Shown here piece after piece: positions 32,731-43,353 of a stretch of 52,475 nucleotides of DNA (its first letter is position 1; the number at the start of each line of letters is the position of its first letter). The stretch spans positions 1 to 52,475 of the forward strand of contig JALSJU010000083.1 in assembly GCA_026989145.1 (NCBI GenBank), given 5' to 3'. This DNA is from Thiotrichaceae bacterium. Its GTDB lineage: Bacteria > Pseudomonadota > Gammaproteobacteria > Thiotrichales > Thiotrichaceae. A program made the translations under genes and the position numbers. The notes beneath the pieces are model-generated. The model was not told the DNA's origin. It did not search any database and saw only the letters and a list, made by a program, of their open reading frames with translations.

Positions 32731-34086
32731 TCATTTTTGATGAGTTGCCTCTACAGCTGCTTTCATTTCAGCTTCAACAGCATCATCAATCTCCAGCGCT
32801 TCATCAGTATCTAACATTCCAGCATCAGGATCATTATAGATCGACAGATCCATCTTGCCTTCGCTTTTGGCAACAATTGATGAAACAGTCGCATCACCCG
32901 ATACATTAACCGCTGTACGAATCATATCCATCAAACGATCAACTCCCAAAATAAGACCAATACCTTCAACCGGTAAACCAACTTGGGTAAAGACCATAGA
33001 TAGCATAATTAATCCAACACCCGGAACACCTGCTGTACCAATTGAGGCGAGTACGGACATTAAGATAACGGTTAGGTAACCTGAAATCCCTAGCTCCACA
33101 TTATAGACATTAGCGATAAATACCGTCGCTACACCCTGCATAATTGCAGTTCCATCCATATTGATAGTCGCCCCAAAAGGAACAGTAAAAGAGGCTACCG
33201 AGTTATTCACGCCAAAACGCTCTGTCACAGTTCTCATGGTGACAGGAATAGTCGCATTTGAACTGGCTGTACTAAATGCAAACACCTGTACGTTTCTGAT
33301 TTTTTTCAAGAACATCGCAGGACTAAGGCCTGAGAAGACTTTAAGCACTATCATTAACGTAATAAACAGATGGAACATTAATGCTCCCACTAACACGCCA
33401 ACATAACCCGCGAGTGAGGCTAGCAAATCCAAACCTAACGTTGATATTGCTTTTGCTATCAACGCAAATACCGCATAAGGCGCAACCGACATAATAATAT
33501 TAACCATTTTCATCATTATTTCATTGGCAATCTCAGCACCTTCGATAAAACTTTTGGCTTTTTTACCCAGCATTAACATGCTTACGCCCAGTAAAATTGA
33601 AAAGAATATGATCGGCAACATGTCACCATTCGCCATTGAAGCAATAGGGTTCTTAGGAATAATGTCAATTAAAACTTGCGATAATGGAGGCTGCTCTTTA
33701 CCAGCAAACTCAGCTTTAGTCGCAATATTCATGCCTTTGCCGATACCGAAAGTAACAGCAATTAAGATTGCAGTCGCAATCGCAATAGCGGTAGTCATCA
33801 TATAAAGCGCAAATGATTTACCACCCACACGTCCTAACATGCGTATATCACCAATTCCGCATACACCACATATTAGAGAGAAGAAAACCAGTGGAACCAC
33901 CAACATTTTCAAAGCATTAACAAACATTTTGCCAATAACATGGAATAAGCCGTTAACAATATACTCATTTATAAATGTACCGGGTGCATTCATCCCCGTG
34001 AGATTTATAATTAACCCCACGATAATACCCAGCGCCATGCCTAACAGCACTTTGACCGTTAAGCTCATTTTTTTTACTTCACTCAT
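32731..34086 (-). CDS. Dicarboxylate/glutamate:cation symporter (DAACS family)
   Basis: The 451-residue carrier has the family's TM pattern: VKVLLGMALGIIVGLIINLT at the start, the serine-rich loop FAFSTASSNATIPVTM, then NMDGTAIMQGVATVF and LASIGTAGVPGVGLIMLSM. These are the helical-hairpin and TM7-8 motifs (NMDGT, SSNATIP) of GltP/DctA proteins, which import glutamate, aspartate or C4-dicarboxylates with protons or Na+. The C-terminus is acidic. A longer in-frame extension to 34227 exists. I start at ATG 34086 because AAAGGAGAAGG lies just before it and MSEVKK is a normal start. It is divergent from the glutamate-receptor-like channel, a suggestive pairing. Confidence 0.93.
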   Translation of the reverse strand: MSEVKKMSLTVKVLLGMALGIIVGLIINLTGMNAPGTFINEYIVNGLFHVIGKMFVNALKMLVVPLVFFSLICGVCGIGDIRMLGRVGGKSFALYMMTTAIAIATAILIAVTFGIGKGMNIATKAEFAGKEQPPLSQVLIDIIPKNPIASMANGDMLPIIFFSILLGVSMLMLGKKAKSFIEGAEIANEIMMKMVNIIMSVAPYAVFALIAKAISTLGLDLLASLAGYVGVLVGALMFHLFITLMIVLKVFSGLSPAMFLKKIRNVQVFAFSTASSNATIPVTMRTVTERFGVNNSVASFTVPFGATINMDGTAIMQGVATVFIANVYNVELGISGYLTVILMSVLASIGTAGVPGVGLIMLSMVFTQVGLPVEGIGLILGVDRLMDMIRTAVNVSGDATVSSIVAKSEGKMDLSIYNDPDAGMLDTDEALEIDDAVEAEMKAAVEATHQK

Positions 34087-34212
34087 ATACCTTCTCCTTT
34101 GGTTATAAAAATCTATTTGCCAAAGATGTGCTACATTTATCATATGTGTTTCAAAAATCAAACATAAATACAAATTATGTAGCAGATCTTTAACCGAGTG
34201 TAGTCTAATGAT

Positions 34213-34238
34213 ATTGAGTTTTCTCAATTATTTATAAT
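34213..34238. promoter_or_regulatory. Inverted repeat and TATAAT in the symporter/channel divergent gap
   Basis: ATTGAG-TTTT-CTCAAT (34213-34228) is a perfect 6-bp inverted repeat, possibly a regulator site. A TATAAT box follows at 34233-34238, 31 bases before the channel gene ATG. There is no convincing -35 at 16-18 bases, so activator control is possible. Confidence 0.35.
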
Positions 34239-34269: not shown

Positions 34270-35355
34270 ATGAAAAAACTAAGAACTTCTCTTTGTCTTA
34301 AAACTATTATTCTTTATTTTTCGTTACTGTCTTTATCGGTTGGCTTTTCACAGCCTATCAAAAAGCCATTGAATATCGGCACGAAGGTTGCTGAACCCTT
34401 TGCAATGAAAGATCAAGATGGCAAATGGTATGGCATTAGTATTGAACTATGGGAAAAAATAGCCAAAGAGCTTAAGTTCACGTTTCAGTACAGAGAGTTA
34501 GGTTTAAAACCATTGCTTGATGATGTAGCTAGCGGATCACTCGATGCAGGCATTGCAGCTATTACGATCACATCAAACCGAGAATCACAATTTGATTTTA
34601 GCCACTCTTATTACTCAACAGGCCTAAGTATTGCCACGCCTAAAAACCTTAACGACGGCTGGCGAAGCGTAATAAGCGCACTATTTTCAAACCAAATGCT
34701 ATTTATTTTGTTAGCCTTAGCAAGCAGCCTTTTTATTATTGGGACATTAACATGGCTAGTAGAACGAAAAAGAAACCCCGAAAATTTCAATCCAAACCCT
34801 TTTAAAGGGATTCCTGCGGGAATGTGGTGGGCAGCAGTTACTATGACAACTGTCGGTTATGGCGATATGACACCGCAGACAATCAGTGGCAGAGTGATTG
34901 CATTATTTTGGATGTTTGCCTCACTGCTTATGGTTTCTGCTGTCATCGCAGGGTTTGCTTCTACTTTAACCTTGGCTAAAAGCCAGCCACTTATTTCTGG
35001 GCCTGAGGACTTACCAAAAGCACGAATTGCCAGTATCAGAAACTCAAGTAGTGACCAGTATTTAGAACAACACAAATTAAAACAGTATTATTACCCAACA
35101 GTTTTAGAGGGTTTAAAGGCTATCGACCGTGGAGAGGTTGATGCAATGGTCTATGATGACTCATTATTAAAATACCTTACTGAAAACCATTTTAAAAATA
35201 AGCTGATTGTGGTTGATAAGCTGTTTGAGTTGCAACAGTACGGTATCGCCTTTCCTGAAGGAAGCCCACTACGAGAACCGGTTAACCGGGTGATGCTTGA
35301 TATAATCAATCGCGAAGAATGGCAGCGCGTGCTTGGAAATTATTTGGGAAAGTAA
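34270..35355 (+). CDS. Prokaryotic glutamate-receptor-like ligand-gated potassium channel (GluR0 type)
   Basis: The 361-residue protein has a signal peptide (about 1-27). The S1 half of a periplasmic-binding-type domain, about 34-130, reads IGTKVAEPFAMKD and ITITSNRESQFDFSHSYYST, with Arg104 at the place that holds the ligand carboxylate. A pore domain is inserted after it: TM1 at 143-165 and a pore loop WWAAVTMTTVGYGDMTPQT, with the potassium filter TVGYGD at 194-199. TM2 is at about 208-230. The S2 half, about 240-361, closes the binding domain (DAMVYDDSLLKYL). This split-domain order is that of GluR0, the bacterial ancestor of ionotropic glutamate receptors. It is predicted to admit potassium on binding an amino acid. 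It is divergent from a glutamate-type symporter. Confidence 0.92.
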   Translation: MKKLRTSLCLKTIILYFSLLSLSVGFSQPIKKPLNIGTKVAEPFAMKDQDGKWYGISIELWEKIAKELKFTFQYRELGLKPLLDDVASGSLDAGIAAITITSNRESQFDFSHSYYSTGLSIATPKNLNDGWRSVISALFSNQMLFILLALASSLFIIGTLTWLVERKRNPENFNPNPFKGIPAGMWWAAVTMTTVGYGDMTPQTISGRVIALFWMFASLLMVSAVIAGFASTLTLAKSQPLISGPEDLPKARIASIRNSSSDQYLEQHKLKQYYYPTVLEGLKAIDRGEVDAMVYDDSLLKYLTENHFKNKLIVVDKLFELQQYGIAFPEGSPLREPVNRVMLDIINREEWQRVLGNYLGK

Positions 35356-35385: not shown

Positions 35386-36300
35386 CTAAGTCGTCTTACT
35401 CGTATATTTCTCCCTATAAACTGATGCGGAGCAGCCATAATAAAGCTTAAAACGATGACAAAAATGGCTAAGGTTTTTATAACCAAGATCATAACTTATC
35501 GTTGTTATTGGTTCACCGTTTAAAATTCTCTTAGCAGCATTTTTTAAGCGTAGTTGCTGGTGCAGTTCAACTGGAGAACACCCTAGTTTTGCCTTAAAAT
35601 CTTTATAAAAACGACTACGACTCATACCCACATACTGACACAACGAATCGATATCTAGTGGTACTGACAAGTTGTTCTCAATCCAAGAAAGTGCTGCACT
35701 TAAGCTATCATCTTCAGGATTCTCCCTTGAAAACGCCAATAAAAAATCTCGTGTTTTATGACGTAATAAACGTATCACCAGCTCAGTAATACCTAAATCA
35801 ATCATAAGCCCACGCTCAGGATGATTTTCACGAAATAATTCAACCAGACGATTTAATAATCTTTGTGTCTCTGTAGAATGACGCGTGTGTAATACAGGAC
35901 AGCCTGTTGACCACTTATTCGCATCCTCTAAAACAGGGATAGACTCACTTAAACGTTCACTTATTGAATTTAACTTTTCTTTAGTGATCTCAACCGTTAA
36001 ACAGGTTGTAGGAGAATCTAATCTCGCTTCAGGAAAATCGATTTCAACAACCTCCCCAGGGGCAATAATAAAGCTTTCATGAGGGAGAAATATTTGCTTC
36101 TCATTGATATTGGGTGAGTGCATAATTTTACGCCCTGTAACCATAGCGCAAAACACTAACTCCCCTGAATTAAGTTCAACATTTGAGGCGGTTTCATAAG
36201 TGTCATAAATACTAAATTCTGAATTATCGGCAAAGAAAGTAAGCTTATTTTCTATTAATTTCTTTGGCATAGGGCTTTGTGCCATTTTCTCCTTATTCAT
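35386..36300 (-). CDS. AraC-family transcriptional regulator
   Basis: The 304-residue protein has an AraC_N-type sensing domain, about 20-175 (QIFLPHESFIIAPGEVVEID, TCLTVEITKEKLNSISERL). The C-terminal AraC DNA-binding domain, about 200-300, has the two helix-turn-helix motifs: LDIDSLCQYVGMSRSRFYKDF, and later ITTISYDLGYKNLSHFCHRF. These regulators usually activate neighbouring genes. The divergent pair of secreted DWIGIY proteins starting at 36580 is the obvious candidate target, with the 279-base gap as the likely operator region. It converges with the channel gene at 35355. Its ligand is unknown. Confidence 0.9.
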   Translation of the reverse strand: MNKEKMAQSPMPKKLIENKLTFFADNSEFSIYDTYETASNVELNSGELVFCAMVTGRKIMHSPNINEKQIFLPHESFIIAPGEVVEIDFPEARLDSPTTCLTVEITKEKLNSISERLSESIPVLEDANKWSTGCPVLHTRHSTETQRLLNRLVELFRENHPERGLMIDLGITELVIRLLRHKTRDFLLAFSRENPEDDSLSAALSWIENNLSVPLDIDSLCQYVGMSRSRFYKDFKAKLGCSPVELHQQLRLKNAAKRILNGEPITTISYDLGYKNLSHFCHRFKLYYGCSASVYREKYTSKTT

Positions 36301-36579
36301 CCCTGCTCCACCAATGTTAATTTATTAACTGTTCTTATAATAATACATATAGCTCATACAATATAATTTTTGAAAAAAAATACAGGTGATTTGTGATTAC
36401 TAATTAAATAGACTGATGAACAACGAATCAGGACTTTCAAACAAGTAAGTAGGTATTGGATAGACTAAGATTAGTGTTGTTAATAATTAAAGCTCGTTTA
36501 TAGAAACCTTTTAAACGTGAGCTCGTATGCTTTAAATGCGACACATCTACAATGAATTAGTACTATAAAAGGGAATATT

Positions 36580-38472
36580 ATGAGAAAATTATTTAATCTA
36601 TTCATTATCACGTTTGCTTTAACAACTTTTGCCAACGCAACCGAATTAACAGCCTGGGATAGAGACGGCACCACTTGGGTAACCATCAAAGATAAACCAA
36701 ACAATTATGAAGACTGGATAGGAATCTATCCAAAGAATTCAAGTAATTCTTGGAGTAATGTTATCGCATGGAAGTGGGCACGTAATGGTTCAGCGAGCCC
36801 AGATGAACCCAATACTGACGAGTACCGCTTTAACGGTATTGACTACGGTGAATACGAAGCAAGGTTCTTTTTAAATAATACATTTAAAACTGAGTACAAA
36901 TCTGCCTTTAAGGTTTTTGATCCATACAAACCATCGATTAACCTGACCACTACCACACTAAAACCTAATAAAGCTATCGAGTTTAACCTTGGTGGGTATC
37001 CAGCTTTATCTGGCAATCAAGATTGGGTCGGCATTTACCCTAAAGGTGCTTCAAATGACTGGAATAACGTTCTAAGCTGGAGCTGGGCAAAAAAGCGTAA
37101 CGTTACGCTAACAGGTGTTCCTGTTGGGTCTTATGAGGCACGGTTATTTTTTAATAATTCTTATACCATTGAAGCCTCTATCTCTTTTGATATTGAGGCA
37201 GATAAAACTGCCACTATTAGCCTTGATAACGGCGTTGTTAAACCACAAGAAAATATTTCTTTCACTCTTTCAAACTTATCAGGAGATCGAGACTGGATTG
37301 GTATTTACCCTAAAGGAGCTTCGAATGACTGGAATAATGTCATCACTTGGGGCTGGGCAAAAAATACTAAAGTCACATTAGGGGGTGTTTCGGTAGGAGA
37401 ATATGAAACACGACTATTTTTTAATAACTCCTATATCCTTGAGGCCTCAGTGCCATTTTCTATAGAAAATAAGAACGTAGAATTTTGGAAGAAAGGAGCA
37501 CTTACCATTGCACCCGTTATAGAAGTTGGCAACAACGGCTTGGTCTATTACCCTAAAAACCTTCATGGTAAAAAAGCCCCTGTTGTGTTCGTTGTTAAAA
37601 ATCATTCAAGCCCTAGAAAAAAACTGGCTACGCTTATTAACTTTATTGCCAGCCATGGCTTTTATGTAGTTTTAATTGATCCTTCTGTAGCTGGCTCAAA
37701 TTACTACACAGAACCCAAAACGAAAATAGCCCCTAGGTATATCGAGATTGTTAATTACCTAAATGAAAGAGGTCATAATTTAGATACTAGCACAATTGGG
37801 GTTGTTGGCAGCTCATACAGCGGAGGTAATACCTTCCCTGTCCTCCATAGACTGAAAGAGGAAGGCTATGGCAGTAATGCTAGTTTTCTCTTGGCGATTG
37901 AATCGGCCAACGCATTTCAGATGAGTAAAGCGGATATGCGATCATTGTCTACAAACAATACATACATAACACTACTGGAATATGACACGAAAGGTAATTT
38001 AAGGCCCCAAGAAAATGGCAAACCAAATCCGTATTCTACTGATGCTCTTTTCCCTCTGATTAACTACTTACACCTCAAGTCTGCAAATAACTTAGAGAAT
38101 ATTGATTTCCAAGTTTTTGAAGACGTAGGAACACGCGGACATCTATACCATCAAGATACCAGCATCATAAATGGTAACCCAGGAGAAAACTATCAGCATA
38201 TGAAAGGTGTGTTAAACCCTCTAGGAGCTTTAATGCAACTTGTTATAAACAAAAATAACCAAGTCGCTCGAGAAGTTGCACTAAATAAAGGTAGTGACAG
38301 TCCTGTAAAGGATGGAATTATGAAAATTAATCCCATTAGTAGTTACAGTTATGACTGTAAAAGCCATGATGATAAATATATTCGTGGATACACGAATATT
38401 AAATATTTTAATGCTGATGCTCTGAAAGGTAATAGAGACTATATTAATTCTATAGAAGACTTAAACTTTTGA
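36580..38472 (+). CDS. Secreted protein: three DWIGIY-repeat beta domains plus alpha/beta hydrolase
   Basis: The 630-residue protein has a signal peptide (FNLFIITFALTTFANA, cleavage before TEL). Three related units of about 85 residues follow, at about 22-112, 119-205 and 213-296. Each carries DW[IV]GIYPK followed by NW.NV...WA and EAR.FFNN. The motif and size resemble SKICH-like beta domains, but that link is my inference. From about 302 the chain changes to an alpha/beta hydrolase: APVVFVVKNHSSP strand, a nucleophile elbow GSSYSGG (Ser412 likely), candidate acid Asp469 and His521 or His524 in GTRGHLYHQD. The elbow is G-x-S-x-S rather than the standard G-x-S-x-G. The substrate is unknown. 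It heads a two-gene group with a paralogue. Confidence 0.75.
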   Translation: MRKLFNLFIITFALTTFANATELTAWDRDGTTWVTIKDKPNNYEDWIGIYPKNSSNSWSNVIAWKWARNGSASPDEPNTDEYRFNGIDYGEYEARFFLNNTFKTEYKSAFKVFDPYKPSINLTTTTLKPNKAIEFNLGGYPALSGNQDWVGIYPKGASNDWNNVLSWSWAKKRNVTLTGVPVGSYEARLFFNNSYTIEASISFDIEADKTATISLDNGVVKPQENISFTLSNLSGDRDWIGIYPKGASNDWNNVITWGWAKNTKVTLGGVSVGEYETRLFFNNSYILEASVPFSIENKNVEFWKKGALTIAPVIEVGNNGLVYYPKNLHGKKAPVVFVVKNHSSPRKKLATLINFIASHGFYVVLIDPSVAGSNYYTEPKTKIAPRYIEIVNYLNERGHNLDTSTIGVVGSSYSGGNTFPVLHRLKEEGYGSNASFLLAIESANAFQMSKADMRSLSTNNTYITLLEYDTKGNLRPQENGKPNPYSTDALFPLINYLHLKSANNLENIDFQVFEDVGTRGHLYHQDTSIINGNPGENYQHMKGVLNPLGALMQLVINKNNQVAREVALNKGSDSPVKDGIMKINPISSYSYDCKSHDDKYIRGYTNIKYFNADALKGNRDYINSIEDLNF

Positions 38473-38479
38473 TAACTAC

Positions 38480-38516
38480 AGTCTAAGCCGGTATGTCGCT
38501 GGTTTAGACTATTTTT
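38480..38516 (+). terminator. Hairpin with T-run between the two secreted-protein genes
   Basis: AGTCTAAGCCGG (38480-38491) pairs with CTGGTTTAGACT (38499-38510), 12 bp with two G-T pairs, around a 7-base loop. ATTTTT follows. It can end or attenuate transcription after the hydrolase gene before the second gene at 38548. Confidence 0.75.
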
Positions 38517-38547
38517 AACACAATCTAAATAATTAAGGGGAATACAA

Positions 38548-40911
38548 ATGAAAAAAATACTTTATGGACTACTTATCTCAATTGTTTTAACCAGTTTTGC
38601 GAGTGCAACTGAAATATTGAGTTGGAAAGACAACTACCCGACAGGGAACTCAACCTGGATAGAGCTCAAAGATAAACCAAACAACTATCATGATTGGATT
38701 GGTATTTATCCAAGAAACTCAAATAACAGCTGGAATAACGTTGTGGCGTTAGTATGGGCTCGTAATACAAGCCCCACAGCCGTTGACCCTGGTGCTTGGT
38801 ATGAATTTGAACTGCCTGATGGGGAATATGATGCACGATTTTTTCTAAATAAAACTAACACCGTTGTTGAAGCAAGTGTTGCATTTAGTGTCGGACAAAA
38901 ACCGTCCACTCTAGCGATTCGGTCTTCGGCTGTAGAAACTCTCAGTAATTCCAGTGTCTATGTGCATCTAAATTTAAATGAAAAAGCGCAAGCACGTGTT
39001 GAATATGGAAGAACTCGCCAATATGGGAAGTTTACAAACAAAGAAAATAGCTTTAAATATGATACACATCAACAAAAAATTAGTAATATCCAAGCAAACA
39101 CATTATATCACTACCGTGTTCATGCCTATGATCGAAATGGCGTAGAGGTTGTCTCTAAAGATAAGACCTTCATGATTAAAAGTTCAGCGGGTTATGCTTA
39201 TCCTCCTGAAACTGATTTTCATACCATTCCATCTGATTACAGTGTTGCCAAACCTGATCATCGGGGCGCAACAGTTATTGACCCACAGTTTGGAACAACG
39301 ATTACCCGAGTGACAGATCATCGTGTGCTAGATAACACTGGTAGCTCATGTACAGGTTATACCTACCCTAAGATGCAGTCTTGGAATGCAGATATGTCTC
39401 TGCTTAAGGTTAAATATAGACTTTACGATGCAAATACTTTAGAAGAATCTCCCATCACTAAAGGGCTGACTTGTTCTGGTGGTTACAATAAATTAGGTAG
39501 CCCTGGACAAGCCTTTCGCTGGTCTTATGTTGATCCAAAGATTTTTTATACACTAGGAACAGATAAGGTTTTCTATAAAAACACCATTAACGGAACTAAC
39601 ACAAGCAAAAAAGTTGTAAAAAGTTTCTCTAACTATGGCTTTGAAAAAATGCTTCTCGGTAGTAATGAAGGCAATATGAGTCATGATGATCGCTATGTAA
39701 TTTTTACTGCTAAAAAACCTGGCAATGATCATATTTTTGCTGTTTTACTTGATATGAGTGCAAACCCTGCTACAGCAAAGGTCAAAGAGCTTCCTAATAC
39801 AACTTGGGGCATTGTTAAGATAAAAAAGTGGAATACTAATTTATATTATGATAGGTCACTTTATGATTGGATTACCATTACACCTAAAGGAAACCATATA
39901 CTTGAAAATAAAACCATTAATGGTCCACAATATGTGGGTCAACGTCTAGATAGTGTGCCAACGGGTGTTTTCATGTATGACATGAACTTTGAGAATCCTC
40001 AAAGGATTACATTAATAGGAGCACATGGAGACTTAGGCATTAATAGTCAAGGTCAACAAGTTTGGGTTCAAAATGAGTTTGGTAATAAAACAGGCACTTG
40101 GAGTTATAATCTTGATACCTTAGAAGATATAAGAGTAGGTACAAAATTAACTTCTATTACCAGTGGTCATGTAAGTTGTCAAAATTACAAACGACCAGGA
40201 TGGTGTTATTTAAGCCCGACTCGACCAGGTCAGCGTGAAGTCGTTGCGGTAAAGCTTGACGGTAGTGGTAAAGTTAATCGTTTTGCACAATCACGTTTTA
40301 ATGGTCATCCTTATGGTGGTGTAAGCCCTGATGGTAAAAGAGTTGTGTTCCAAAGCAATTGGAATGATAGAGGCAAGCTTGATACTTTCCATGCAGCACT
40401 TAAAACAGCAACTGCAGGTCTGAATACAAAGGTTTTGTATGACGATGCAGAAGATGGTAATACCAACGGCTGGAGAGTTTATGATAGAAGTCCAGCAGGT
40501 GCGACCATTAGTAATGTATTTGATGGTGATATAGGTAGCAAAGTCATAAAGCTCCAAGGCTCTGGAACTCAAAATGGGTACATACTAGGTGGTAACTGGA
40601 ATAATATTGAGCGTAAAACGATTCAGTGGAAAATGAAATATGATGAAAACTATGTTGTCTATATTTCAGTCAACACCACAAAGGGACACCGTTATATTTA
40701 TTACAATGCAAGTAATAATGATTATGGACTACGCGGTAAATATATCCATCATGGCCTTGGATCAGCATCTAAAAATGGTGCGTGGCGAATGGTTACCCGC
40801 AACCTAGACTCTGACTTAAAAGACTATGAAGCTGATAATAACTTATTATCAATTAACGGGTTTTTAATCAGAGGTAGCGGTCTTGTTGATGATATTCAAT
40901 TGCTACAATAA
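38548..40911 (+). CDS. Secreted multidomain protein: DWIGIY domain, Fn3-like, propeller-like, C-terminal carbohydrate-type domain
   Basis: The 787-residue protein starts like its neighbour (signal ending SFASA, then TEILSW) and has one DWIGIY unit, about 22-116 (KDKPNNYHDWIGIYPRNS). A fibronectin/purple-acid-phosphatase-type strand region follows at about 121-211. Next comes a long repetitive middle, about 230-625, with spaced motifs such as HGDLGINSQGQQVWV and GGVSPDGKRVVFQSNWNDRG, as in beta-propellers. The C-terminal domain, about 628-787, starts YDDAEDGNTNGWRVYDR and ends SGLVDDIQLLQ, resembling carbohydrate-binding-type jelly rolls. No catalytic residues stand out. Secretion and domain mix suggest binding of an extracellular polymer. 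It begins 75 bases after the hydrolase gene, past a terminator-like hairpin. Confidence 0.75.
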   Translation: MKKILYGLLISIVLTSFASATEILSWKDNYPTGNSTWIELKDKPNNYHDWIGIYPRNSNNSWNNVVALVWARNTSPTAVDPGAWYEFELPDGEYDARFFLNKTNTVVEASVAFSVGQKPSTLAIRSSAVETLSNSSVYVHLNLNEKAQARVEYGRTRQYGKFTNKENSFKYDTHQQKISNIQANTLYHYRVHAYDRNGVEVVSKDKTFMIKSSAGYAYPPETDFHTIPSDYSVAKPDHRGATVIDPQFGTTITRVTDHRVLDNTGSSCTGYTYPKMQSWNADMSLLKVKYRLYDANTLEESPITKGLTCSGGYNKLGSPGQAFRWSYVDPKIFYTLGTDKVFYKNTINGTNTSKKVVKSFSNYGFEKMLLGSNEGNMSHDDRYVIFTAKKPGNDHIFAVLLDMSANPATAKVKELPNTTWGIVKIKKWNTNLYYDRSLYDWITITPKGNHILENKTINGPQYVGQRLDSVPTGVFMYDMNFENPQRITLIGAHGDLGINSQGQQVWVQNEFGNKTGTWSYNLDTLEDIRVGTKLTSITSGHVSCQNYKRPGWCYLSPTRPGQREVVAVKLDGSGKVNRFAQSRFNGHPYGGVSPDGKRVVFQSNWNDRGKLDTFHAALKTATAGLNTKVLYDDAEDGNTNGWRVYDRSPAGATISNVFDGDIGSKVIKLQGSGTQNGYILGGNWNNIERKTIQWKMKYDENYVVYISVNTTKGHRYIYYNASNNDYGLRGKYIHHGLGSASKNGAWRMVTRNLDSDLKDYEADNNLLSINGFLIRGSGLVDDIQLLQ

Positions 40912-41008
40912 AATTAATTAGTGTAGCTAATAATTGAAAGCACCCACCTGCTTAAATTTATTTAAGTTGGTGGGTTCTTGCAGGCTATGACCACCCCTCT
41001 ATAGCGAT
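40912..41008. other. Gap after the secreted-protein pair, with weak hairpin
   Basis: CCCACC...CTTAAAT and ATTTAAG..GGTGGG form an interrupted stem at 40943-40974, followed by only a short T stretch. It may end transcription from the upstream gene. The 90-bp repeat array begins right after. Confidence 0.4.
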
Positions 41009-41340
41009 ATTACGTTGTTGCTACCACACCCGTTTTAGCTTTCAGATTTTCTGGGAAGATATGTCAGCCTTAACATCATGGGTTGTCGTCCTAGCTAGAT
41101 ATTACGTAGCTTTTACCTTCTCGTTCAACCTTCGGAATACGAGATAAATTTGTCGCCTTTCCGCATCATGGAGTGTCGTACTAAGTAGATATTACGTTGC
41201 TATTAGCCTCCCGTTCAGCCTTCGGAATTACGAGATAATTTGTCGCCCTTCCACATCGTGGGGTGTCGTCCTTAGAAGAGATTACGTTGCTATTACCCCT
41301 CCCGTTCAGCCTTCGGCTTTCCGGGATAATTTGTCGCCCT
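41009..41340. repeat. Four-unit tandem array of ~90-bp repeats with hairpins
   Basis: ATTACGT recurs at 41009, 41101, 41191 and 41281, spaced 92, 90 and 90 bases. Each unit carries a TTCRRCCTTCGG-like core, GATAATTTGTCGCC and a CATC.TGG.GTGTCGT segment, and the last unit is cut at about 41340. The stem around the core is TCTCGT/ACGAGA in unit 2, TCCCGT/ACGAGA (one mismatch) in unit 3, TCCCG/CGGGA in unit 4 and CCCG/TGGG in unit 1. It runs up to the stop of the molybdopterin gene (41341). The function is unknown. The array is not a CRISPR because units are contiguous and have no spacers. Confidence 0.8.
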
Positions 41341-43353
41341 TTAGGGGGCTGACAAATCAACAAATGCATCATAGAAAGCAGCGCCTTCTCCAATATCAGT
41401 TTTTGTATTTCCCAATAGCGCGCTAACGGTTTGCCCCGTACTACTGCTGACACACCATGCACCTTTATGGCTGTATATGACCCCCTTGGCTACATCATCT
41501 GTCACAACTGCTGTTAAGGTAACTTCACCCAGATCATTGGAGAGTTTTACGGCTTGACCATTTTTAATCGCTAACGCTTTAGCATCTTGCGTATTGATTT
41601 CGACTTCTTCGGGGGCACTTCTCGCATCACCAAAGGTTGAGTTTGAACGGTGAAAATGTGCCGAGGTAATTAAGGTAAACGGGTGTGTTTTTTCTAAGGC
41701 TTCATAACGTGGCAAGCCGTAACCATATTTACCTTCTAAAATATCATTGAAGAGCATAATTTTATCTGTTTTATCAGATAGCCAGATATAATCTAGATCG
41801 AGCATACTTAAGGATGAATCGGTGCTGATTTCACTGACTTTACTTTCCTTGTGGGATGTTGTTGATAAGTCAAATGCTTGTTCTTGCAATTGCTCGTCAG
41901 TATCTTTAAAGGCTTGCTCATTAAAACCAAAGCGCTGTGCTAAACGCCTAAATATTTCCATATTCGGAAGTGATTCACCGACTCGATCTATAGCAGGCTC
42001 AGTGCGTTGTAAATAGGTATGACCGTAAGCAGCGTACACATCGCTGTGTTCAAAATGACTGCATGCGGGTAATATCACATCAGCGTACTTCATGCTATCT
42101 GTCATATTAATATCACAGCCAATAACAAAAACATCTTCATGTGAAAGGGCTTTTTTCATCTTATTTTGATTTTGGTGCACTATTACAGGGTTATGGTTGT
42201 AGATAAACACCGTTTTAATAGGCGTTGAGTTCTCTCTATCAAGGATATGCTCAGCAGCATCAATCAAATTAAAAGTACGCGTCGGACGGGGCAATAAATC
42301 GGGGCGCATAAGTCTTTTTGGGGTTTTATTAAAAGTTGGACCATAGTTACCCATCTGCCCTTGACCAAGCTCGCCAAATTGCCCAGTTAATATCGACAAA
42401 GCCATTGCCGAACGAATCGATGACCCACCATTGCGTGATCGTTCAATGCCAACACCCACCATCATTGAAACACGTTTTGCGCCTTGGAATAGTTGAATAA
42501 ATTGCTCTACCTGCTGTTTACCTAAACCACAAATGTCCTCTAGTTTCTCTTTCTGATAAGTTTTAGCGTGGTCTAAATAGTCCTTCAAACCAGATACTTT
42601 ATCCTTAATTTTGTCATGAGCAATCATCCCAAGACGTTCAAATTCGGCGGCCATTGCCAGTGCAAAATAGACATCTGAGGCAGGTTTTATTTGCAGATAG
42701 CAATCAGCGATACCAGCCACTTTGATTCTTTTTGGGTCAATTACAATCACTTTAGCACCTTTTTTACGCGCTTTATTAACAAATTTCATTAAGTGCAAAT
42801 AAGAGGTTGTGGTATTCACACCCCAAAGAATGATTAAATCTGAGTGCTCTGCTTGCTCTGTAGGCATAGCTACAGCATCACCAAATAAGGACTTATACGA
42901 TAAGCTACGCACGCCTGCACACATTGGTGGGCGGTTTAACTGTGTCGCACCTAGTTTATAAAAGAAACGCATATCCATCGAATTTTCAGCTAATTGACCA
43001 TGTGGCCCAGCATAATTAAGTGGCATCACGCTTTCGGTGCCGTATTCATCAATGCCCTTTTGAATACTTTGGTAGCACAGCTCTATCGCCTCACCCCAGC
43101 TTATCTGCTCAAACTCGCCCGAACCTTTTTCACCTGTTCTGCGTAGCGGTATGGTTAAGCGGTTTTTACCGTGCACAAAATCAGGATAATATTTAGCGAC
43201 CTTGCCGCAAATCACACCATTGGTCATAGGGTTGGCTTTTGAGCCTTTAACTTTAAGCAGCTTACCGTTTTCTACAACAGCAGTTAGGCTACAGGCATCG
43301 GGGCAGTCTAATGGGCAAACACTGGGCTTTTCGATAAGGTGCGTATGTGACAT
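41341..43353 (-). CDS. Molybdopterin-dependent oxidoreductase, 4Fe-4S type
   Basis: The 670-residue protein belongs to the DMSO-reductase superfamily. The N-terminal cluster loop is C13-PLD-C17-PDA-C21, with the fourth Cys in NGVICGKVAKYYP (C49). It then has the ELCYQSIQKGIDEYGTESVM and molybdopterin-binding DLIILWGVNTTTSYLHL regions. The C-terminal aspartate-decarboxylase-like fold starts near HPFTLITSAHFHRSNSTF. There is no twin-arginine signal at the N-terminus, so it is probably cytoplasmic. No partner subunit genes are adjacent. The substrate cannot be called, but formate-, thiosulfate- or nitrate-type enzymes share this fold. The stop codon is at the edge of the 90-bp tandem array. Confidence 0.9.
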   Translation of the reverse strand: MSHTHLIEKPSVCPLDCPDACSLTAVVENGKLLKVKGSKANPMTNGVICGKVAKYYPDFVHGKNRLTIPLRRTGEKGSGEFEQISWGEAIELCYQSIQKGIDEYGTESVMPLNYAGPHGQLAENSMDMRFFYKLGATQLNRPPMCAGVRSLSYKSLFGDAVAMPTEQAEHSDLIILWGVNTTTSYLHLMKFVNKARKKGAKVIVIDPKRIKVAGIADCYLQIKPASDVYFALAMAAEFERLGMIAHDKIKDKVSGLKDYLDHAKTYQKEKLEDICGLGKQQVEQFIQLFQGAKRVSMMVGVGIERSRNGGSSIRSAMALSILTGQFGELGQGQMGNYGPTFNKTPKRLMRPDLLPRPTRTFNLIDAAEHILDRENSTPIKTVFIYNHNPVIVHQNQNKMKKALSHEDVFVIGCDINMTDSMKYADVILPACSHFEHSDVYAAYGHTYLQRTEPAIDRVGESLPNMEIFRRLAQRFGFNEQAFKDTDEQLQEQAFDLSTTSHKESKVSEISTDSSLSMLDLDYIWLSDKTDKIMLFNDILEGKYGYGLPRYEALEKTHPFTLITSAHFHRSNSTFGDARSAPEEVEINTQDAKALAIKNGQAVKLSNDLGEVTLTAVVTDDVAKGVIYSHKGAWCVSSSTGQTVSALLGNTKTDIGEGAAFYDAFVDLSAP

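Follow-up and report, generated by a model that had tools for sequence, protein, structure and literature searches.

The araC, p1 and p2 genes

The analysed DNA (the window; 52,475 nucleotides, GenBank JALSJU010000083.1) is contig 83 of a 2.63 Mb Thiotrichaceae draft genome that is 98% complete. In the named collection, the nearest relatives of this genome are Thiotrichaceae metagenome-assembled genomes, followed by Lysobacterales. The locus described here consists of an AraC-family regulator gene (araC) and two adjacent genes for secreted proteins, p1 and p2. Its unusual feature is a secreted bacterial SKICH unit which is shared by an enzyme (p1) and by a partner protein (p2) of a kind found elsewhere in fusion with such an enzyme. 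A preliminary description of this DNA had suggested a possible new extracellular system. Every part turned out to have known relatives; what is new is how they are combined and that the SKICH module is bacterial and secreted.

The araC gene (35386..36300, minus strand) was identified from the open reading frame (ORF) list, Pfam and its orthologues, and is divergent from p1. Its product passes the cut-offs of both AraC_N (PF06719; 59.6 bits, cut-off 24.2) and HTH_18 (PF12833; 74.6 bits, cut-off 33.6). The p1 gene (36580..38472, plus strand, like all features given below) encodes a secreted protein of 630 amino acids with three SKICH-type units and an alpha/beta hydrolase domain. The p2 gene (38548..40911) encodes a secreted protein of 787 amino acids with one SKICH-type unit, an Fn3-like domain, a beta-propeller and a beta-sandwich. 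Both signal peptides were read directly from the sequence: that of p1 (MRKLFNLFIITFALTTFANA, 36580..36639) ends in FANA before TEL, and that of p2 (MKKILYGLLISIVLTSFASA, 38548..38607) in FASA before TEI. Between p1 and p2 stands an intrinsic-terminator-like hairpin (38480..38510; 13 pairs, -18.3 kcal/mol, z -5.4) with ATTTTT directly after it, and a second terminator-like hairpin after p2 (40939..40975; -19.1 kcal/mol, z -4.8) closes the cluster. The signal peptides, the domain make-up (hydrolase in p1; Fn3-like, propeller and C-terminal sandwich parts in p2), the separating hairpin and the divergent regulator had all been noted in the preliminary description and were confirmed.

SKICH-type units

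The SKICH-type units of p1 lie at 36640..36924 (unit 1), 36931..37200 (unit 2) and 37207..37470 (unit 3), and that of p2 at 38608..38895. The two proteins had been described as carrying the same DWIGIYP unit; the unit is indeed common to both, but not once each, with three in p1 and one in p2. The N-terminal ~120 residues of the two proteins have 51-55% amino-acid identity and ~70% DNA identity. Aligning the mature part that they share (about 100 residues) gives a score of 231, whereas none of 500 shuffles exceeded 52, and the likeness therefore reflects common descent and not chance. The p2 unit shares 55% identity with p1 unit 1 and 71-72% with the units of the hydrolase in the genome G009.

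With all three units together, p1 passes the Pfam SKICH profile (PF17751; 40.4 bits, cut-off 23.4), while p2 alone scores 16.2 bits, under the cut-off. A profile of the units searched against solved sequences gave chance matches only, and the likeness emerged from fold comparison. A structure model of the three p1 units (mean predicted local distance difference test score, pLDDT, of 77) was compared with solved structures by VIA-align. Its top predicted-fold matches are the SKICH domains of NDP52 and TAX1BP1 (Z 9.8-10.4; root-mean-square deviation 1.9-2.9 Å over 84-93 of about 105-110 residues), to which unit 3 is structurally closest. The sole non-SKICH entries in that Z band are the N-terminal immunoglobulin (Ig)-fold domain of a Flavobacterium GH66 dextranase, described in PMC10316084. 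Profile and predicted fold identify the DWIGIYP unit as a bacterial SKICH domain with an Ig-like fold. That it is a wholly new domain was considered, and is ruled out by the Pfam and fold matches to SKICH.

The p1 and p2 units resemble eukaryotic SKICH domains (PF17751; NDP52/CALCOCO2, TAX1BP1, INPP5K/SKIP, INPP5J/PIPP) in the profile match, the D-W-[IV]-G-[IL]-[YF] core, the Ig-like fold (Z about 10) and in being joined to enzymes. However, eukaryotic SKICH is cytosolic, whereas the units described here are bacterial, secreted and, in p1, arranged in tandem. A literature search returned no description of bacterial SKICH, which is weak evidence as subscription papers fell mostly outside its coverage. 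The p1 SKICH region had no match among plasmids.

The unit is rare: it was found in 5 of 398 Pseudomonadota genomes and in 3 of 321 genomes of the class, the window's genome included in both counts. It occurs on hydrolases (L043, L044), on a secreted PPC-domain protein (L045, whose N-terminal part has no relative among solved sequences), on a beta-helix protein (L084) and on an M60-like peptidase (L105). This spread over different, mostly secreted proteins suggests a mobile binding or targeting module. In humans, the SKICH domain of INPP5K directs localisation (PMC5339217), and by analogy the bacterial units may localise the proteins that carry them. The finding links SKICH, a domain known from work on human autophagy and phosphoinositide signalling, with secreted enzymes of bacteria; the bacterial units are small and soluble, and their ligand is amenable to measurement.

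More distant combinations were also seen. In G203, a genome from another family, a distant propeller carries five C-terminal SKICH-like units (L085:6568-9936), an independent propeller-SKICH combination. Two EEP-fold proteins (Exo_endo_phos, PF03372; L107:172-1791 in G683 and L108:1495-2994 in G383) are apparently secreted and end in a SKICH-like unit, the same domain order as the 5-phosphatase-SKICH of human INPP5K and INPP5J. Relatives that span the SKICH-like unit occur in 3 of 100 genomes of the family, the source included. A speculative and rather improbable extension would make SKICH a bacterial extracellular targeting module that co-targets separately secreted enzymes and accessory proteins and was later recruited by eukaryotes, with L107 and L108 as forerunners of the INPP5K/INPP5J architecture.

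Hydrolase and propeller

The alpha/beta hydrolase domain of p1 (37483..38412) has a putative triad of Ser412 (37813-37815, within G-S-S-Y-S), Asp488 (38041-38043) and His521 (38140-38142, within HxY). The PETase profile PF12740 matches p1 under its cut-off of 28 (24.2 bits, E=2.7e-5), and a fused relative (L070) passes it at 43.7. A profile of ten hydrolase relatives matches structures of cutinases and poly(ethylene terephthalate) (PET) hydrolases, or PETases, at 1e-10 from the core to the nucleophile elbow; no solved structure matches the part past the elbow by sequence. In the hydrolase alignment Ser412 and Asp488 never vary, and His521 lies within a conserved HxY that the automatic alignment had placed off by one column and that was mended by eye. 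The elbow reads GSSYS in p1 and GxSxG in the nine other aligned relatives. The core, the elbow region and the Ser-Asp-His triad thus align with the cutinase/PET hydrolase-like family, while the sub-cut-off score, the GSSYS elbow and the fusion or pairing with a propeller set p1 apart. From these sequence comparisons, p1 is probably an esterase-type hydrolase of the cutinase/PETase-like branch acting through Ser412, Asp488 and His521, and its substrate would be an ester.

This hydrolase subfamily is rare as well, being present in 1 of 398 sampled Pseudomonadota genomes, which is the window's own and has three copies. One of the other two copies is a lipoprotein fused to a propeller (contig 16, L041:10105-12624), and the other is stand-alone with N-terminal repeats (contig 77, L042:5333-7162).

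In p2, the SKICH-type unit is followed by an Fn3-like or purple-acid-phosphatase-N-like domain (38899..39183; PF16656, weak in p2 and strong in its relative L050) and by a beta-propeller of TolB/S9-like fold (39190..40404). The propeller is 37-71% identical to those of fused relatives. Its predicted fold matches TolB, PREP and other S9 propellers; the propeller profile found no sequence relative among solved chains, so the likeness to TolB/S9 is one of fold only. The C-terminal beta-sandwich (40405..40908) matches Glce_b_sandwich (PF21174, E=4.6e-11); its model has a pLDDT under 45, and the fold assignment is that of Pfam alone. Other large secreted proteins from related genomes (L053:5476-10209 and L052:6920-9268) each contain this sandwich three times, which makes it a module in its own right. 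No catalytic signature was recognised in p2, which is probably a non-catalytic partner.

An alpha/beta hydrolase working with a propeller of this fold recalls the S9 prolyl oligopeptidases. However, in S9 both parts form one chain, whereas p1 and p2 are separate chains. The fused relatives also place the hydrolase before the propeller, the reverse of S9, and their hydrolase belongs to the cutinase-like branch.

Searching 84,980 species genomes with the propeller profile yielded 14 loci, and at 10 of these the same hydrolase is found N-terminally in the propeller ORF. Nine are complete or nearly so (L059, L060, L061, L062, L066, L067, L068, L070, L071) and L065 is truncated at the contig start. 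At L072 (the same as locus L046) hydrolase and propeller lie in consecutive broken ORFs. Only the remaining three loci (L063, L064 and L069) show none; two of them are near a contig start. Single ORFs with hydrolase and propeller are also listed for L041, L047, L048, L049 and L050. Several fused relatives are lipoproteins, and one contains a dockerin. Fusion of two proteins elsewhere is established evidence of their joint function (the Rosetta-stone argument). The occurrence of these two subfamilies as one polypeptide in most relatives therefore supports joint action of p1 and p2. The rare hydrolase-propeller family, kin to polyester hydrolases, is found mostly in environmental metagenome-assembled genomes.

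Phylogenies uncovered different origins for the two halves. In the propeller tree, p2 groups with L049 and L050 (support 100/100), whose fused hydrolases are 22-23% identical to p1. In the hydrolase tree, p1 groups with the SKICH-hydrolases L043 (96/96) and L044 (83/82). With the two trees in disagreement, the idea that a fused ancestral gene simply split in two was rejected as a full account. Because the trees put the p1 hydrolase and the p2 propeller in different lineages, and because the p2 unit is nearer to the G009 units than to p1 unit 1, the SKICH module is taken, on sequence evidence, to have been exchanged between hydrolase and propeller genes by module shuffling. By the same comparisons, p2 resembles a protein of the L050 type in which a SKICH tag has taken the place of the original hydrolase.

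Proposed regulation and joint action

Between araC and p1 lies a candidate AraC operator (36410..36446), in which the half-sites aGACTgatgAACAA and gGACTttcaAACAA are repeated at 21 bp spacing. A tandem site of 21 bp period is common to the intergenic regions of five AraC loci (G002, G007, G018, G025, G027). With a matrix built from two other genomes the window site scores 21.3, against a shuffled maximum of 15.0, and at <=3 mismatches 36410-36446 is the sole match in the genome. The site first drew attention partly because it resembled the window, and the pattern for the genome-wide search was designed around the window site. In the araC intergenic region of G020 contig C70 the best operator score is 8.1, not above shuffles.

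Orthologues of the regulator are present in 9 of 57 close genomes, the window's included. They stand beside an aldehyde dehydrogenase gene in G002, G007, G018 and G025, and beside a pyrroloquinoline quinone (PQQ)-type dehydrogenase gene in G022, G028 and one G020 copy (all dehydrogenases named by eye from sequence). The second G020 copy, on contig C70, is transcribed divergently from two genes for secreted SKICH proteins, and in the AraC tree it forms one group with the window regulator (support 91/93). Contigs C70 and C46 of G020, tested for overlap of their ends, have none; they might nevertheless be joined as one operon. The window regulator resembles the dehydrogenase-linked AraC_N-type (PF06719) regulators, being 58-67% identical to the aldehyde-dehydrogenase-linked ones and sharing their tandem operator, but the target of those is a dehydrogenase, whereas its own neighbour is a secreted SKICH gene. 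The regulation proposed in the preliminary description is accordingly supported for p1, by the conserved operator and by the sister AraC beside two SKICH genes in a second genus, but not for p2, with a terminator in between and no second operator. The operator may serve autoregulation of araC as well as p1.

On balance, we lean towards p1 and p2 being a co-acting, co-targeted pair of a secreted esterase and a propeller protein. This interpretation builds on domain make-up, fusion, module shuffling and the operator, as read from sequence, and would extend them to co-action, targeting through SKICH, an ester substrate and a direction of AraC control. The two proteins would act jointly on one extracellular polymer or surface ligand, with the propeller and C-terminal sandwich of p2 holding or presenting the substrate to p1. 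The SKICH-type Ig-fold module would bring both to the same place; p1 and p2 would be freely secreted, the SKICH tag replacing the fusion or lipid anchor of their relatives. AraC would bind the tandem operator at 36410-36446 and control p1 upon some effector, and transcription of p2 might come from readthrough of the hairpin terminator or from a promoter of its own. The partner protein and the predicted regulator-operator pair make substrate and control directly testable. The earlier proposal of a binding and degrading pair thus gains support for joint hydrolase and propeller action, through the fusion in most relatives, and for the shared unit as a mobile SKICH-type module. The evidence does not, however, support the trio as an obligate unit: in G009 and G020 SKICH-hydrolases are found with no propeller next to them, and most AraC orthologues stand beside dehydrogenase genes. 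In G009, hydrolase and propeller are on separate proteins and SKICH is on the hydrolase only.

Several observations weigh against a co-acting, co-regulated pair. The second glycine of the elbow is a serine in p1, hence caution on its predicted catalytic competence. The AraC-SKICH clade has two members, one on a long branch, and in G009 contig ends leave the SKICH-hydrolase/propeller linkage unread. No operator precedes p2. The terminator between p1 and p2, the G020 SKICH-hydrolase without a close propeller and the presence of SKICH units on many unrelated secreted proteins would further suit functional independence of p1 and p2, in which SKICH is a general-purpose surface or polymer tag duplicated through local recombination and the two genes are neighbours only by accident. 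Such independence appears unlikely: most relatives have precisely these two subfamilies, of hydrolase and of propeller, in one fused protein, and with so rare a hydrolase a chance meeting here is improbable.

Co-action could also take a narrower form, use of polysaccharide or biofilm matrix, with p1 acting as a deacetylase (a carbohydrate esterase) and carbohydrate bound by the SKICH units and the sandwich. The match of the p2 sandwich to a glucuronyl C5-epimerase domain, the company of SKICH units with a beta-helix, the structurally close dextranase Ig-fold domain and the dockerin in one fused relative all point this way. However, most of the closest solved hydrolases are PETases and cutinases, the window ORFs include no neighbouring genes for glycan utilisation, and Ig-fold matches are no demonstration of binding, which leaves this form doubtful. 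For the regulator, the dehydrogenase neighbours of orthologues at 51-67% identity would fit a relic of an alcohol/aldehyde oxidation regulon that controls neither p1 nor p2, the operator being retained for araC autoregulation alone. This too seems improbable, given that the operator is kept between araC and p1, that a search of the own genome for the aldehyde dehydrogenase flanking orthologous AraCs gave no match, and that the nearest sister AraC likewise stands beside SKICH genes. The preferred reading remains that of the esterase and propeller pair.

Outside the cluster, a gene for an ionotropic-glutamate-receptor-like channel (34270-35355), in which SBP_bac_3 is interrupted by an Ion_trans_2 pore as in GluR0, adjoins a dicarboxylate/glutamate-type symporter gene (32731-34227). 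Past the p2 terminator, a 90-bp imperfect repeat (83% matches) occurs in three tandem copies at 41073-41341, accompanied by a partial fourth copy at 41006-41034; the end of a molybdopterin oxidoreductase gene comes shortly after.

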